Of a stretch of DNA of 64,000 nt, positions 32,410 through 49,801 are shown piece by piece. Location of the stretch: the NCBI RefSeq assembly GCF_001730525.1, contig NZ_MDFN01000008.1:62001-126000 (forward strand), in the 5' to 3' direction. The DNA comes from Arcticibacter eurypsychrophilus. Lineage in GTDB: Bacteria; Bacteroidota; Bacteroidia; Sphingobacteriales; Sphingobacteriaceae. A model generated the notes under the pieces. The model did no database searches, was not told the origin of the DNA, and worked only from the letters and a program-made list of their open reading frames with translations. A program made the translations under genes and the position numbers. Positions within the stretch are counted from its first letter, which is position 1. Each line of letters starts with the position of its first letter.

Positions 32410-32423
32410 CTGATCAAGATCAT
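32410..32423. promoter_or_regulatory. FNR-like site upstream of the zinc-knuckle gene
   Basis: CTGATCAAGATCAT matches TTGATnnnnATCAA at 8 of 10 fixed positions. Its centre (32416.5) is 36.5 bases from the downstream end of the -7 box. The perfect site before the tolC gene (49194-49211) has exactly the same distance. Confidence 0.5.
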
Positions 32424-32595: not shown

Positions 32596-33207
32596 ATGAA
32601 CGTTCAGTTAAACAGCATCACCTGTAAAAAGACAGCAATTTTTGATAGCACATTGTGCTTAATCAAAGAGCATGGCTTCCATGGCACACCGATGAGCATG
32701 ATTGCCAAAAACGCAAATGTAGCCGCCGGCACTATTTACCATTACTTTGAAAGTAAGGATGCTCTGATTAAAGCACTCTACATTTACGTCAAAGACGGTC
32801 TTGCCGACGCAATACCTTCAGACGATAACCTCCTTTCCTATAAAGAATTATTCATTCAATACTGGGTAGATCAATGCGCGTATTTTATTGCACATGAAAA
32901 TGCGCTCTACTTTCTTGAGCAATATAATACATCACCCTACAGAATCTCAAATCCGGAAATAGAAAGCAAAGTCTTTTTAACCCGAATTGTTCCTTTTTTC
33001 CAAAAGGGGATCGATTCCGGACAAATCCGTAAAATGGATTACCAGCTTCTTATGCCTGTTATTCATGGAAGCATTGTTGCTACGGCAAAATACCATTTGT
33101 TGGGTCATTACGATTTCACAAAAGAAAGACTTCAAGAAACAGCCCTAATTATCTGGGATGGTATAAAAATGCAGCAATCCACAATTACCACTCACCCAAT
33201 CATATGA
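32596..33207 (+). CDS. TetR-family regulator of the efflux operon
   Basis: 203 residues. The N-terminal DNA-binding domain has the classic TetR pattern: AIFDSTLCLIKEHGFHGTPMSMIAKNANVAAGTIYHYFESKDALIKALY. The helix-turn-helix starts close to residue 12, so the ATG at 32596 is the right start. The C-terminal helical domain should bind an unknown ligand. The gene overlaps the tolC start by 4 bases (ATGA) and leads tolC-adaptor-RND pump, so it most likely represses its own operon. A perfect 10-bp palindrome overlapping its start codon is the probable operator. Confidence 0.92.
   Translation: MNVQLNSITCKKTAIFDSTLCLIKEHGFHGTPMSMIAKNANVAAGTIYHYFESKDALIKALYIYVKDGLADAIPSDDNLLSYKELFIQYWVDQCAYFIAHENALYFLEQYNTSPYRISNPEIESKVFLTRIVPFFQKGIDSGQIRKMDYQLLMPVIHGSIVATAKYHLLGHYDFTKERLQETALIIWDGIKMQQSTITTHPII
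32597..32606. promoter_or_regulatory. Probable TetR operator overlapping the tetR start codon
   Basis: TGAACGTTCA is a perfect palindrome beginning at the second base of the tetR ATG, 9 bases after the -7 box. Sequences of this kind are common operators of AcrR-type TetR proteins. Binding here would block both RNA polymerase and the ribosome start. Confidence 0.5.
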
Positions 33208-34553
33208 AAATTAACAACCTAATCCTCCCATTAGTATTAGCTATACCCTTTATTATACCAGGGAAATTAACCGGACAAACACTTGCAGGAGATTCTACAA
33301 TCAATAACGCTACTTTGGATCAGTGTATTGAATATGCGTTAAAAAATCAACCTGCTATTAAACAAGCACTTATAGATGAAGAAATTGGCGAACGTGATAT
33401 CAAATCTGCCCTTTCCGGCTGGTTACCCCAAATAAATGGGAACGCTAATTTTAACCATAACTTTAAACAACAAGTTTCCGTATTTCCAGTAGATGGAGTA
33501 CCCACAAATGTCACTATAGGAACTAAAAACACTTCCTTAATATCAGTACAGGCTAATCAGAACATATTAAACGCTGGATTAATTCAAGCTTCTAAGACAG
33601 CCAAGTACTTTAGACAGCAGTTTAAGCAAACTACCGAGAACAATAAAATATTTACAGTTGTCGATGTTAGTAAAGCATTTTATGACATATTGACCAGTAG
33701 AGAACAATTGAACATCACTGATGAAAATATAACCCGTCTTCAAAAACAGTTAAAGGATGCTTATGCCCAGTATGAAGGAGGCCTTGTTGATAAAACAGAT
33801 TATAAACGTGCTCAAATCAGTTTAAGTAATTCCCAGGCTGATAAAAAAAGAATCTCCGAACTATTAAAATATAAGTACGCTTATCTAAAGCAACTTATCG
33901 GATATCCCGGAACAGCAAATTTTAGTATTAACGCGAATAACACTAATATGGAAAATGAAGTATTGCTGGATACCACACAACAAATTAATTACCAGAATAG
34001 AGTTGAATACAGACAGTTGACTACACAACGAGAACTGCAAAGGATCAATACGAGTTATAATAAACTAGCTTATCTTCCTACTCTTTCCGGCTTTATTAAT
34101 TACGGTGAAAACTATCTAAATGATAAAGTTCGAAATCTTTACGACACCAATTATCCGAGCTCAGTTGGTGGACTAACGCTGAGTATCCCTATTTTTCAAG
34201 GAACCAGACGTACTCAGGAAATCCGAAAAGCACAATTACAGGAAAGAAGAGCAGATTTGGATCTTGTACAAGCAAAAAATGAAATCTATAGTCAGACTGA
34301 AGCGGCCATGGCCTCCTACAAAGCAAATCTAAATGATTGGAAAACATCCCGTCAAAATGTTACCCTTTCCCAGGAAGTGTATAATACCATTAAGGTTCAA
34401 TATGATGAAGGAATTAAATCATATCTGGAACTGATGACAGCAGAAACCGATCTGCGCACCACTCAAATTAATTATCTCAATGCATTATATAGTTTACTAT
34501 CCAGTAAACTCGACGTACAACAGGCTTTAGGAACCATTACCTTTCAACAATAA
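33204..34553 (+). CDS. TolC-family outer-membrane efflux channel
   Basis: 449 residues with a signal peptide (ending KLTGQ). Two outer-membrane efflux protein repeats occur: long heptad-like helices (about 50-260 and 260-440) with TTQINYLNALYSLLSSKLDVQQALG at the C-terminus and ISIPIFQG-like LSIPIFQGTRRTQEIRKAQ, typical for TolC relatives. It forms the exit duct of a tripartite pump with the adaptor and RND protein encoded immediately downstream. The gene is translationally coupled to tetR (4-base overlap) and 6 bases from the adaptor gene. Confidence 0.94.
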   Translation: MKINNLILPLVLAIPFIIPGKLTGQTLAGDSTINNATLDQCIEYALKNQPAIKQALIDEEIGERDIKSALSGWLPQINGNANFNHNFKQQVSVFPVDGVPTNVTIGTKNTSLISVQANQNILNAGLIQASKTAKYFRQQFKQTTENNKIFTVVDVSKAFYDILTSREQLNITDENITRLQKQLKDAYAQYEGGLVDKTDYKRAQISLSNSQADKKRISELLKYKYAYLKQLIGYPGTANFSINANNTNMENEVLLDTTQQINYQNRVEYRQLTTQRELQRINTSYNKLAYLPTLSGFINYGENYLNDKVRNLYDTNYPSSVGGLTLSIPIFQGTRRTQEIRKAQLQERRADLDLVQAKNEIYSQTEAAMASYKANLNDWKTSRQNVTLSQEVYNTIKVQYDEGIKSYLELMTAETDLRTTQINYLNALYSLLSSKLDVQQALGTITFQQ

Positions 34554-43707: not shown

Positions 43708-44295
43708 ATGAACGGATCAGACCTGATAATAGAAAACATTTCCACTTACATTCAACTGGACGAGAAAGAAAAAGAGTTATTCCTTTCACTCCTCATTCCT
43801 GCCAACATTTCCCGAAAACAAATCATTCTGCGAAAAGGTGAAATATGCCGTTATTCCACTTTCGTATACGAAGGATGCCTCAGAGGTTACACCTACGATA
43901 AAAATGGATCGGAGCATGCACTGAATTTCGCTCCTAAAAACTGGTGGATTGCAGACATGTACAGCTGGATTTCGCAAAAACCCGGAATCTTAAACATTGA
44001 AGCCCTGGAAGATTCAAAAGTCTTAAAGCTCTCTAAAGTGAATCAGGAAATACTATATAAGGAAGTACCAAAGTTTGAACGCTTTTTCCGGATTATTATT
44101 GAGAAATCACTTGTAGCCTCACAGGAACGGGTATTAAACAATTTAAGTTTGACGGCAGAGGAACGATATACCCAATTCTGTTCTAAATACCCTAGTCTGA
44201 TTGAACACGTTCCTTTAAAACAGGTAGCCTCATATATCGGCGTAACCCCTGAATTTTTCAGTAAAATGAGGAACGGTTTGCTCAAGAAAAAGTAG
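43708..44295 (+). CDS. Crp/Fnr-family transcriptional regulator
   Basis: 195 residues. The N-terminal cyclic-nucleotide-binding-like beta roll spans about 20-120 (RKQIILRKGEICRYSTFVYEGCLRGYTYDKNGSEHALNFAPKNWW). A long helix links it to a C-terminal helix-turn-helix (VPLKQVASYIGVTPEFFSKMRNGL). It lacks an FNR-type cysteine cluster, so oxygen sensing by an FeS centre is unlikely. The signal is unknown. Pirin-type gene downstream by about 55 bases could be a target. Confidence 0.88.
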   Translation: MNGSDLIIENISTYIQLDEKEKELFLSLLIPANISRKQIILRKGEICRYSTFVYEGCLRGYTYDKNGSEHALNFAPKNWWIADMYSWISQKPGILNIEALEDSKVLKLSKVNQEILYKEVPKFERFFRIIIEKSLVASQERVLNNLSLTAEERYTQFCSKYPSLIEHVPLKQVASYIGVTPEFFSKMRNGLLKKK

Positions 44296-45426: not shown

Positions 45427-46614
45427 TTATTCAGACTCGCCATTAACCCCTTCAGCGAAATTCTTTCTAGCCCGCCATATCTTAAATTGAATGGTTGAAA
45501 AAGCCATAATTCCATAGATCAGGATCAGGATACATAGATGGATCAGAGAAGGGGAAACATTACTTAGCGTGCCCTTTTCGAGGAGTAGTATCTTGTGGGC
45601 ATTGAGAAAGGGCGTTAAAGGCAATGCGTTTGCCAACCATTGCACGCCCATAGGCATCGATTCTGTCGGCCAGGTATACCCTCCAATGATGAAAGCAGGC
45701 ATGGATAGTAACATCAAAACCTGGGTAGCTTTTAATGAATTAGGGAAAATGGCACTAACCAATACACCGAGAAAAGAGGTTGCTATGATAAACAAGGCGG
45801 TTGTAACCACAAACTTGCCCAATGGACTAGGAATGGGCGCATGAAAGATATGATGGAAAATATAATAGGTAAATAAGATAAAGATGGACATAATCCAAAA
45901 GGGCAAAATTTTCACCATCATGGCCACAAAGGCGGATCCTGTATTGCGGAGCAGTTCAGAATTAAATGTATTATTTTCATACTCGCGTGAAAAGCTTACT
46001 GCCAGGCCAAGCAAGATTACCTGTTGCAGCACAACAGCGAGTACTCCCGGCCACATAAAGGTAAAATAGTTGCCTGTTTCATTAAAAAGCTTGATGTAAT
46101 TCGCTTTGAAGGGTTCATATTGTGTGAAAGCCTGCTCGGCATTCATGCCCTTTTTCTTTAAGCCCTGCATATTAATTCCGGCACTAAAAGTTCCAATTGT
46201 TGCCTGTAACCCTTGCGAAGCCATATTGGCTGTAAGTAAATTGGTGGTATTGAGATAGGTATTTATTTCAGGATAGTTTTTTTGTAAGATAGAGGCCTCA
46301 AAACGATCGGAAATCACGACAGTGGCAACGGCTTGACGTTCGACCATCGCTTCGGTAGTGCCTAGATTATCGTGTTTGATGAGCACCACATGGAGCTTTT
46401 CATTGTCATTTAACAAGTCAATTAGCTGGTTGCTCAGAGGAGTATTGTCGAGATCGACCACTATAACAGGGAGATGCTCTACTTTACCTGACTTATATAC
46501 ATAACCAAACATGACCGCGTAAATAATGGGGGCAAGAAGAAAAACAGACATCAGCGTGGTGTCTTTAAAAAAGAGCCTAAACTCTCTTCTGAGCAGATAA
46601 AAAAAGTTTCTCAT
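45427..46614 (-). CDS. ABC-2-type transport permease (YhiI/YbhR-like)
   Basis: 395 residues. One helix near the N-terminus (LMSVFLLAPIIYAVMFGYVY) is followed by an extracytoplasmic domain (about 45-175) and then five helices between about 175 and 385, the layout of ABC2_membrane_3 permeases. These work with a HlyD adaptor and TolC to export drugs or other molecules. Here the adaptor gene is 4 bases upstream and a TolC gene precedes that, but no ATP-binding subunit is nearby, and only one permease is encoded. It is the last gene of the set. Confidence 0.88.
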   Translation of the reverse strand: MRNFFYLLRREFRLFFKDTTLMSVFLLAPIIYAVMFGYVYKSGKVEHLPVIVVDLDNTPLSNQLIDLLNDNEKLHVVLIKHDNLGTTEAMVERQAVATVVISDRFEASILQKNYPEINTYLNTTNLLTANMASQGLQATIGTFSAGINMQGLKKKGMNAEQAFTQYEPFKANYIKLFNETGNYFTFMWPGVLAVVLQQVILLGLAVSFSREYENNTFNSELLRNTGSAFVAMMVKILPFWIMSIFILFTYYIFHHIFHAPIPSPLGKFVVTTALFIIATSFLGVLVSAIFPNSLKATQVLMLLSMPAFIIGGYTWPTESMPMGVQWLANALPLTPFLNAHKILLLEKGTLSNVSPSLIHLCILILIYGIMAFSTIQFKIWRARKNFAEGVNGESE

Positions 46615-46618
46615 CTTT

Positions 46619-47575
46619 TTAGTTTAACGTTATGGTCGCATTTACCAACAGGTTTTCGACTTTATTCTCGTCAGACGGAACGATTTTCAATTCGTAAATA
46701 GCTTCTTCAATTTGGTAATCAGGGTAGGCTGCAGTGATATCTGCGTAACGGGCCAACTGCTTAATGGTGACAATTTTCCCGGTGATATCGGTTTTAGCAT
46801 ACGGGACATGAATAGTAATGGCCTGCCCTCTTTTATAATTGCCAATTTTGCTTTCAGGAATGGTAAAGCGGAAATAAGTTGTCAAGGGTTGGTAACCGTT
46901 AAAAAGGGTATATCCAGCGGTAGCTAATTCTCCTTCATGGAGACTAATAGTCTCCAAAAGCATCTCATTTGTAGCGATAATATATCTTTCGGAATATGCC
47001 ACTTCAACTTCTTGCACAACGCCTAGTGCCTGATCTTTCTGACCTTGGGCAGCTGTTTGGCTTTCTGTCCGCACGCCCTTAATAGCTTCATTCATTTCTG
47101 CATTCACAGCGTCATACTGCGCTTTCGCACCTAAATATTTAGCAGTAATTTCGTCAAAAGCCTGTGCGGTCATCATGCTGTCGGCAAACATTCCTTTTGC
47201 ACGCGCATAAGATTTCTGAGCGAAATTAAACTGTTCTTTTATACCGGATTGTTTGGCTCTTAACTGAGTAAGCTGATTGGCAGTCGCTCCATTTTTTGCG
47301 AGATCGCGCTGTGCGCTTGCGGCTTTTAAAACGCCTTTGGCCTGCGATAATTTGGCATTAACTTCGGGTACATCCAGCATGGCAAGGGTATCACCCTTTT
47401 TTACCAGGTCGCCTTCTTTAACGTATATTTCAAGAATCCTGCCTGTTACTTTTGGGGCAAAACCAATGAGCTCTCTTTTGATTTTACCTTCAAGAGGTTT
47501 GTTCTTTTTAGTAGTACAACTAAAAATGGTCGATACAATGAAGAGTAGGACAACTATTTTATATACTGTTTTCAT
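46619..47575 (-). CDS. HlyD-family periplasmic adaptor
   Basis: 318 residues with a lipobox-like signal (IVSTIFSC, Cys20). It has the adaptor elements GFAPKVTGRILEIYVKEGDLVKKGDTLAMLD (lipoyl half), a coiled-coil hairpin (about 75-185), and a barrel segment (YNRGQ-like NYKRGQAITIHVPYAKTDITGKI). It connects the permease to an outer-membrane TolC. It lies 162 bases after the tolC stop, with a perfect palindrome in that gap, and 4 bases before the permease gene. Confidence 0.92.
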   Translation of the reverse strand: MKTVYKIVVLLFIVSTIFSCTTKKNKPLEGKIKRELIGFAPKVTGRILEIYVKEGDLVKKGDTLAMLDVPEVNAKLSQAKGVLKAASAQRDLAKNGATANQLTQLRAKQSGIKEQFNFAQKSYARAKGMFADSMMTAQAFDEITAKYLGAKAQYDAVNAEMNEAIKGVRTESQTAAQGQKDQALGVVQEVEVAYSERYIIATNEMLLETISLHEGELATAGYTLFNGYQPLTTYFRFTIPESKIGNYKRGQAITIHVPYAKTDITGKIVTIKQLARYADITAAYPDYQIEEAIYELKIVPSDENKVENLLVNATITLN

Positions 47576-47737: not shown

Positions 47738-49135
47738 TTAATGAATACTGGCTTTCGTCAGACTTCCTGTTGCTTTTAGTAATTCCAATGCCGCCTGACG
47801 TTGGTTAAATACCGCTTGCAGTTTTTGTAGGGCTGCATTTTGATAATCAGTTTCTGCACCTATTAAATCCGCTGCTTTAATCAATCCCAGTTTAAATTCT
47901 TTACCTGCCTGCTCTAATGCATTTCCGGCTATTTGTTTTTCCTTTTCCTTTACTTGTATTTCTGCAACTGCGTTACTAAAGTCTGTTTGAGTTTTCAGTA
48001 AAAGAAGATTAAGCTTTTCTTCGGCGTCTATCTTCTCATTTTCGGCTTTTCTGACTTCAATCCTGGCATGTTGTACATCCCTCTCCCCTTTAAATCCAGT
48101 AAAGATATCCCACTTAAAGCCTACTCCTATGTTGAAATTAGGAACAATTTCAAACTTGTCGGCTCGCAGCTTTAAAACACCTACAATTGGCAGAGCTTCT
48201 TTACCTGTTAATTTAGTATTGAAAATATTCAGATAACCTAGAGAGGAAGCGGCCTGAATCTTAGGAATCCACCAAGTTTGGGCTGCTTTAACTTTATATT
48301 CATAGGCTGCGATACTGAAGTTTAATGCTTTCATTTCGGGCCTATTTTGGACAGACTGAGCGGCATCAAGTAGATTAAAAGAGAGTAATTCGTTGTCTAT
48401 GGCAGCTAATCGCTCAATCTCTATCCCTGTATACATTTCTATTTGATGTAAAATTAGGTTTTTCTTTCCTTCATAATCCAATCTTCGGGAGCTCAGCTGT
48501 GCTTTAGCGACTTCAATCTTTTGATGTTCGTATTTGGTTATCAGACCATAACCTAATGCTTTATCGGCAGTTTTAGCATTTATGTCGAGGCGATCTTGAC
48601 TTTCGTCCAATACAATTTTAACCTGTTTCAACAGCGCTAACTGATCGTAAGCTTTACTAACATCTGTTATGATCTGCTGGCGATTAATTTCTAATAAAGC
48701 AGTCTGAGCTTTGGTTTTTTCCGTTAATGCTTGTTTTAGAGCTGGAACTTTCCCTCCAGTGTACAGTAAAGCGCTTACGGTTAAATCAGTCTTAAACAGG
48801 TTAGCCTGACTATTAAAACCAGCGTTTACTTCGGGAAGATTCATTGCTGTACCGTTTAGAGAAAAACTTGAGGCAGGAATTCCCAACTCAGCAGAGTTGG
48901 CCAGAAATGCATATTTACCTGAAATATCTGCCGTAGGGAGATATACTTCCTTTAATTGCTTTAATTCAAGATTAGAAGATTGTATATCTAATATTTTGTT
49001 AGCAAGTACATGGTCTTTAAGTAAGGCTTTGTCAATTAGCTCATCCAGGGACGGGGCGGCTCTATTTTGAGCGGACAAAACAAAAGGAAAGTATATAAAG
49101 GCAATCAATAGAAATATTACTGTACTCGATTTCAT
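47738..49135 (-). CDS. TolC-family outer-membrane protein
   Basis: 465 residues with a signal peptide (ending FVLSAQ). The outer-membrane-efflux repeats contain long helices (LKQALTEKTKAQTALLEINRQQ, ISKAYDQLALLKQV; DIFTGFKGERDVQHARIEVRKAENEK) and the C-terminal AADLIGAETDYQNAALQKLQAVFNQRQAALELLKATG. It is the outer duct for the HlyD/permease pair downstream. Its promoter carries a perfect FNR-type palindrome at the class II activator position, and the Crp/Fnr gene lies just upstream. Confidence 0.94.
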   Translation of the reverse strand: MKSSTVIFLLIAFIYFPFVLSAQNRAAPSLDELIDKALLKDHVLANKILDIQSSNLELKQLKEVYLPTADISGKYAFLANSAELGIPASSFSLNGTAMNLPEVNAGFNSQANLFKTDLTVSALLYTGGKVPALKQALTEKTKAQTALLEINRQQIITDVSKAYDQLALLKQVKIVLDESQDRLDINAKTADKALGYGLITKYEHQKIEVAKAQLSSRRLDYEGKKNLILHQIEMYTGIEIERLAAIDNELLSFNLLDAAQSVQNRPEMKALNFSIAAYEYKVKAAQTWWIPKIQAASSLGYLNIFNTKLTGKEALPIVGVLKLRADKFEIVPNFNIGVGFKWDIFTGFKGERDVQHARIEVRKAENEKIDAEEKLNLLLLKTQTDFSNAVAEIQVKEKEKQIAGNALEQAGKEFKLGLIKAADLIGAETDYQNAALQKLQAVFNQRQAALELLKATGSLTKASIH

Positions 49136-49165: not shown

Positions 49166-49173
49166 CAAAGCTA
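49166..49173 (-). promoter_or_regulatory. -7 promoter element of the tolC export operon
   Basis: TAGCTTTG on the minus strand exactly fits TAnnTTTG. It would start transcription near 49161, about 25 bases upstream of the ATG. There is no TTG at -33, as expected for an activator-dependent promoter. Confidence 0.55.
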
Positions 49174-49193
49174 GCCATTAATAAATTGTAACC

Positions 49194-49211
49194 TTTTGAT
49201 CTAGATCAAAA
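49194..49211. promoter_or_regulatory. Perfect FNR/Crp-type operator of the tolC export operon
   Basis: TTTTGATCTAGATCAAAA is an 18-bp perfect palindrome containing the exact TTGATnnnnATCAA consensus known for FNR-type regulators. Its centre lies 36.5 bases from the end of the -7 box, i.e. about -41.5 from the predicted transcription start, the class II activation position. The adjacent gene (49238-49801) encodes a Crp/Fnr regulator. Confidence 0.7.
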
Positions 49212-49237: not shown

Positions 49238-49801
49238 TTATTTTTTTGCCCTTATTCTGCTTAAAGTCTCCTGAGTGATACCTAGATAAGAAGCTATATG
49301 ACCTAATGATGCGCGTTGAATAATAGAAGGATAGTTTTTCATAAGAAGATCATATCGTTCCTGCGCAGAAAGAAACTGCAGGGTTACGATACGATCGGTA
49401 GCTTTAAGTAAAAATTCCAATAAACCCTGACTTTTAATCTTTTCGGTTTCAGGATAGATTTTCAGCAACATTTCAAAATCAGTATAAGTAATTTTTCGCA
49501 TTTCACAGTCTTCCAGGCTTTCAATGTTGTACCTGGAAGGTAACTGACCAAAAAAACTTTCTGCCACGGTAAGCATCATTCCTTCAGTAAAAAAACTGTA
49601 GGTTATATCTTTGCCAGACTCATTATAATAATAAATTCGGGCTAATCCTTTTTCAATAAAAAACATCTCTTTTGAAATTTTACCTTCAGTAATGAGAATC
49701 TGTGTTTTACTAAATTTAACGGGAATAAATGCGTTTTCTATTGCCGTATTCGTTAAGTCCGATAGTGGTAAAATCTGATTGATGTAAGAGGATAATTGCA
49801 T
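49238..49801 (-). CDS. Crp/Fnr-family regulator of the export operon
   Basis: 187 residues from the ATG at 49801; a GTG at 49849 gives an unlikely extension. The N-terminal effector domain (KFSKTQILITEGKISKEMFFIEKGLARIYYYNESGKDITYSFFTEG) and C-terminal helix-turn-helix (ASLGHIASYLGITQETLSRIRAK) are intact. No FNR iron-sulfur cysteines are present (only one Cys, in EDCEMRKI), so the ligand is unknown. It lies directly before the tolC-HlyD-permease operon on the same strand, with an FNR-type palindrome between them, so it most likely activates that operon. Confidence 0.9.
   Translation of the reverse strand: MQLSSYINQILPLSDLTNTAIENAFIPVKFSKTQILITEGKISKEMFFIEKGLARIYYYNESGKDITYSFFTEGMMLTVAESFFGQLPSRYNIESLEDCEMRKITYTDFEMLLKIYPETEKIKSQGLLEFLLKATDRIVTLQFLSAQERYDLLMKNYPSIIQRASLGHIASYLGITQETLSRIRAKK

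Follow-up and report, generated by a model that had tools for sequence, protein, structure and literature searches.

A Crp/Fnr regulator gene, an operator and an exporter operon

The window, by which we mean the whole 64-kb stretch of DNA that was analysed, carries a Crp/Fnr-type regulator gene followed by tolC, hlyD and permease genes, all four on the minus strand. The features of the locus are as follows.

49238..49801, minus strand: Crp/Fnr-type regulator gene, 187 aa, ATG at 49801 (Pfam PF00027)
49194..49211, no strand assigned: operator TTTTGATCTAGATCAAAA, perfect 18-bp palindrome, predicted centre at -41.5
49166..49173, minus strand: -7 element TAGCTTTG, Bacteroidota primary sigma factor type, without a -33 element
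49161, minus strand: predicted transcription start, placed from the geometry 5 nt past the -7 box
47738..49135, minus strand: tolC-family outer membrane efflux gene, first gene of the operon (Pfam PF02321)
46619..47575, minus strand: hlyD-family periplasmic adaptor gene (Pfam PF16576 and PF13437; NCBIfam below cut-off)
45427..46614, minus strand: ABC-2 family permease gene, last gene of the operon (Pfam PF12698)

The listed open reading frame of the regulator begins at GTG 49849, which is 16 codons too early as judged from orthologues; the orthologous regulators begin at the position equivalent to ATG 49801. An earlier note on this DNA had correctly seen that a Crp/Fnr gene adjoins the palindrome, but its placement had to be corrected: the regulator and tolC genes have the same orientation, with the regulator gene upstream, and the site is therefore located in the 102-bp gap between them. 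Both in the window and in those orthologues that we inspected, the cassette has a single permease and lacks an ATPase gene. Pedobacter, Olivibacter and Dyadobacter show the same order, regulator-TolC-HlyD-permease, again with no gene for an ATPase. At 32596-34553, on the plus strand, a gene that appears from its sequence to encode a TetR-like regulator precedes another efflux gene of the TolC type.

The operator and its distance from the -7 element

The operator TTTTGATCTAGATCAAAA is a perfect 9+9 inverted repeat. A Markov model of order 1 predicts 0.35 perfect 18-bp palindromes in 64 kb; the window contains two, the sole other one being ATGTACCAGCTGGTACAT at positions 19-36. The palindrome had been taken for the FNR consensus, and its 14-bp core is indeed identical to the E. 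coli FNR model site FF, TTGATCTAGATCAA (PMC4505428). As had also been claimed, its centre lies 36.5 bp from the last G of TAGCTTTG, and no TTG was found 19-23 bp upstream of this box. The box matches the Bacteroidota -7 consensus, TAnnTTTG (PMC7366714), exactly in the window; the exact TA is not conserved in the orthologues, whereas the A at the second position (9/10) and TTTG (10/10) are. If the box takes up -12 to -5, the operator centre falls at -41.5, the class II position assigned to it before, and this distance is kept in every orthologous cassette. Measured from the -7 box only, the promoter thus has the predicted centre of a class II promoter and lacks an upstream promoter element.

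The sequence TTGATNNNNATCAA by itself is common: a pattern search found 27 copies in the genome, and the focal copy alone has TTTG at the 36.5-bp distance. The other 26 copies have no TTTG at this distance, which led us to discard the idea of a large regulon in this genome. Within the window, the focal site is the only palindrome of at least 8/9 at 36.5 bp; a second candidate of the focal type near 32416 was discarded, there being no gene within ~480 bp downstream.

The regulator lacks the cysteines of FNR and most cAMP contacts of CRP

The regulator possesses the cNMP-type beta-roll, the long dimer helix and the C-terminal helix-turn-helix of the Crp/Fnr superfamily (PF00027 and structural model), and its AlphaFold model (pLDDT 92) matches CAP and FNR structures in Foldseek. 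The 187-aa product starting at ATG 49801 contains only one cysteine, as the earlier note had reported. This residue, Cys99, is missing from several orthologues, and the four cysteines that bind the [4Fe-4S] cluster of the oxygen sensor FNR are not present. With a single, non-conserved cysteine, the protein therefore has no FNR-type [4Fe-4S] cluster, which bears out its description as a non-FeS regulator.

CRP contacts cAMP with Glu72, Arg82 and Ser83 (CRP numbering), and the aligned residues of the regulator are Val, Pro and Ser. Because two of the three contacts are missing from the alignment, canonical cAMP binding is unlikely.

Near the C-terminus, alignments place the recognition helix T-Q-E178-T-L-S181-R182. 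E178, S181 and R182 align to Glu209, Ser212 and Arg213, with which E. coli FNR contacts TTGATCTAGATCAA (PMC4505428), so the locus combines the E-x-x-S-R residues of FNR with a TTGATNNNNATCAA operator. Another Crp/Fnr protein of the same genome (L297) also has an E-x-x-S-R helix and is a possible second binder of the focal operator. A further Crp/Fnr gene, at 43708-44295, encodes an unusual recognition helix, TPEFFSKMR, and has a pirin/quercetinase-like gene after it. Neither near this gene nor near the remaining Crp/Fnr genes did we find a convincing site of the focal layout.

Operator and distance are conserved in tolC cassettes

A TolC search in 400 genomes of the order yielded ten cassettes of the same type, the window counted in; genome G020 matches Arcticibacter svalbardensis. 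The palindrome was kept in all ten (15-18 of 18 bases) at an identical distance to TTTG; this was the comparison of orthologous promoters that the earlier note had suggested, and its reading came through it. The mean column identity, out of ten orthologues, was 9.3 for the site, 8.9 for the box, 7.2 for the spacer and 5.7 for the upstream region. In five Pedobacter-type loci (L048-L052), the site lies within the coding 3' end of the regulator gene, where an extension missing from other orthologues, FD-x-DQK-x-IA, runs over it. Since the palindrome stays near-perfect inside this coding extension, selection appears to act here on the DNA and not on the protein.

Twenty-two more distant Crp/Fnr-tolC loci carry TTTTAAGATATCTTAAAA or close variants of it (e.g. 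...TGAAAA) at an unchanged distance, so that the centre of the site is 36.5 bp from the end of TTTG in 32/32 Crp/Fnr-tolC loci, a count drawn from two overlapping genome collections without the 75% identity filter used below. The site of L054, which lies beyond the 400-bp scan range, was read directly for this count.

In five more distant versions of the tolC cassette (L057, L058, L060, L068 and L069), it is a MarR-family gene that stands in front (an assignment borne out by Pfam in L057, L068 and L069), and two of them, L058 and L060, have the palindrome GTTGTATATACAAC at the tolC start. It is possible that these cassettes represent a switch from an activator to a repressor.

The recognition helix and the operator vary together

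At the tolC loci with TTTTAAGATATCTTAAAA, the recognition helix reads Q-Q/P-T-L-S-V, as opposed to Q-E-T-L-S-R in the window. We drew up a recognition code from 61 non-redundant regulators with sites. Glu at the position of FNR Glu209 was accompanied by G at base 5 of the half-site (TTTTG; TTTTGA) in 43/43 cases, and a residue other than Glu by a base other than G in 15/18 (Fisher 1e-11, with regulators treated as independent and kinship uncorrected). Gln or Pro at this position together with Val at the FNR-213 position goes with TTTTAAG, Val together with Arg with TTTTAAC (one TTTTATC), and Thr-Arg with CTTGCC; the lone Ser-Arg regulator retains TTTTGAC. In the regulator tree, the Gln/Pro-Val and Val-Arg groups form separate clades, and the loss of Glu was therefore accompanied by the loss of G at least twice. 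The choice of T or C at half-site base 7 in the Glu group is not accounted for by the contact residues of the helix. This covariation of operator and neighbouring helix argues for the earlier proposal that a non-FeS Crp/Fnr protein would read an FNR-like site.

A genome of the same genus (G041, locus L024) carries a regulator of the QQTLSV/TTTTAAG type ahead of an HlyD-type pump gene; both specificities thus occur within one genus.

The fixed distance is widespread in Bacteroidota

The focal site is one case of a general layout that is invisible from the window alone. From whole genomes and named genomes we collected ~200 loci with related Crp/Fnr genes, sampled by similarity to the focal regulator. 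Palindromes of at least 8/9 near the regulator gene peaked sharply at offset 37 (42 vs ~2), and the offsets of palindromes far from regulator genes showed a flat distribution. Removal of regulators at 75% identity or more left 112 non-redundant ones. A palindrome of at least 7/9 at offset 37 was found for 55/112 non-redundant regulators, compared with 1.4 per other offset (P ~1e-66). For roughly half of the 112, no site was seen at this offset; either the layout rule has exceptions, or the sites of these regulators have degenerated or lie in other places. In a scan of 395 genomes of the phylum that took no account of regulators, TTTGATNNNNATCAAA was followed by TTTG 22 times at the focal offset, compared with an average of 8.6 (P 1e-4). 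An alignment of the promoters showed conservation of the operator, A(-11) and TTTG (-8 to -5) only, with no conserved -33 element.

The start codons of the target genes mostly lie 13-35 bp past TTTG. The first genes after the sites include those for TolC efflux proteins, HlyD/RND pumps, small multidrug resistance proteins and YiaAB, as well as for fatty acid hydroxylase family proteins, an amidase, an FAD-binding protein and a sodium/calcium exchanger-family protein; efflux and detoxification dominate, though not exclusively. In a minority of loci (L022, L029, L030, L163, L168 and L233), the site is at 37.5 instead of 36.5 bp; several of these sites precede fatty acid hydroxylase-type genes and share the helix I-K-Q-E-T-L-S-R. 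Two flavobacterial regulators (L223 and L231) have perfect TTTTGACAATTGTCAAAA sites before DoxX-like and amidase-like genes.

Proposed mechanism and alternatives

On this basis, the adjacent Crp/Fnr regulator very probably activates the tolC-hlyD-permease operon through the focal operator. A regulator dimer would bind the palindrome at -41.5 and contact RNA polymerase in a class II-like manner, standing in for the missing -33 element; the promoter, with its -7 box alone, would then fire and the exporter would be made. The regulator would sense neither oxygen via an iron-sulfur cluster nor cAMP, and its signal is probably a small molecule expelled by the pump. What the comparison establishes, at the level of sequence, is the site with its exact spacing, the fact that it is paired with the regulator and with the recognition helix of that protein, and the lack of a -33 element; what we infer is that the regulator binds directly and activates instead of repressing, along with the start site, the nature of the ligand and the cargo.

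A role as a repressor, in which the regulator bound at this site would block RNA polymerase until a ligand releases the operon, is unlikely. The site would overlap the -33 region, and other cassettes of the same type are regulated by MarR-family proteins, which usually repress. However, a repressor would not need the one exact position found in 55 non-redundant cases, and promoters without a -33 element resemble activator-dependent ones. Still less probable is that a different Crp/Fnr protein, such as a global FNR-like regulator, binds the site and the neighbour is a bystander: the operator varies with the helix of the adjacent regulator, and the geometry is concentrated beside regulator genes and found at 1/27 genomic sites, although the genome does have more Crp/Fnr genes, one with an E-x-x-S-R helix, and 27 copies of TTGATNNNNATCAA. 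We dismissed a terminator or RNA hairpin ending the regulator gene, since, even though the palindrome is just past the stop codon and could form an AT-rich stem, it folds no better than shuffled sequence (z 0.74), no terminator-like site was found, and neither the constant spacing from the -7 box nor the association with the helix would be explained.

The most likely reading is that the regulator, in response to a ligand, activates the adjacent exporter in a class II-like manner, and each regulator probably switches on its neighbour only. Extending this to the phylum, we consider it likely that cassette-dedicated Crp/Fnr activators form a large class in Bacteroidota, each with its own operator just downstream of its own gene and distance-locked to a -7-only promoter, which would mostly switch on efflux or detoxification genes; operator and helix would have diverged in step into distinct pairs that form a readable code.

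The mechanism itself is of a known kind. In the part of the literature that we covered, we found no description of a rigid, phylum-wide cassette of one regulator and one promoter with a readable code, and nothing relevant on Crp/Fnr control of HlyD/TolC or on -41.5 sites in Bacteroidota. Transcription activation in this phylum, with its unusual -7/-33 promoters, is poorly charted. The layout gives a simple rule for assigning targets to otherwise unassignable Crp/Fnr proteins, and it offers dozens of predicted regulator-operator-promoter triplets with start sites predicted to the base, a natural data set on the co-evolution of recognition helix and site, and possible parts for regulated promoters in Bacteroidota.

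Comparison with known systems

The closest relative in sequence with a solved structure is 3DN7, a cyclic-nucleotide-binding regulatory protein from Cytophaga hutchinsonii (E 2e-19; TM 0.89 by target), whose helix, unlike that of the focal regulator, ends in PEYLSEIR. Among Bacteroidota, Cur/MalR (BT4338) of Bacteroides thetaiotaomicron is likewise a Crp-type regulator; it is described as a master regulator of carbohydrate use (PMC6989115), whereas the focal regulator looks local. HcpR of Porphyromonas/Bacteroides is a Crp/Fnr activator, as is predicted here, and is set apart by being haem- and NO-dependent and controlling hcp (PMC12750200, PMC13370916). With E. coli CRP/CAP at class II promoters, the regulator shares the fold and the predicted activation geometry, but its site is different and Glu72 and Arg82 are replaced by Val and Pro. 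A parallel in layout is offered by the class II promoters of E. coli FNR, which have the same TTGATNNNNATCAA site with its FF core, the same E-x-x-S-R recognition residues and the same 29.5 bp between the site centre and the first base of the -10/-7 element. Unlike FNR with its global regulon, the focal regulator has no iron-sulfur cysteines, acts at a promoter with a TAnnTTTG -7 box by our prediction, and is apparently dedicated to the one operon next to it.
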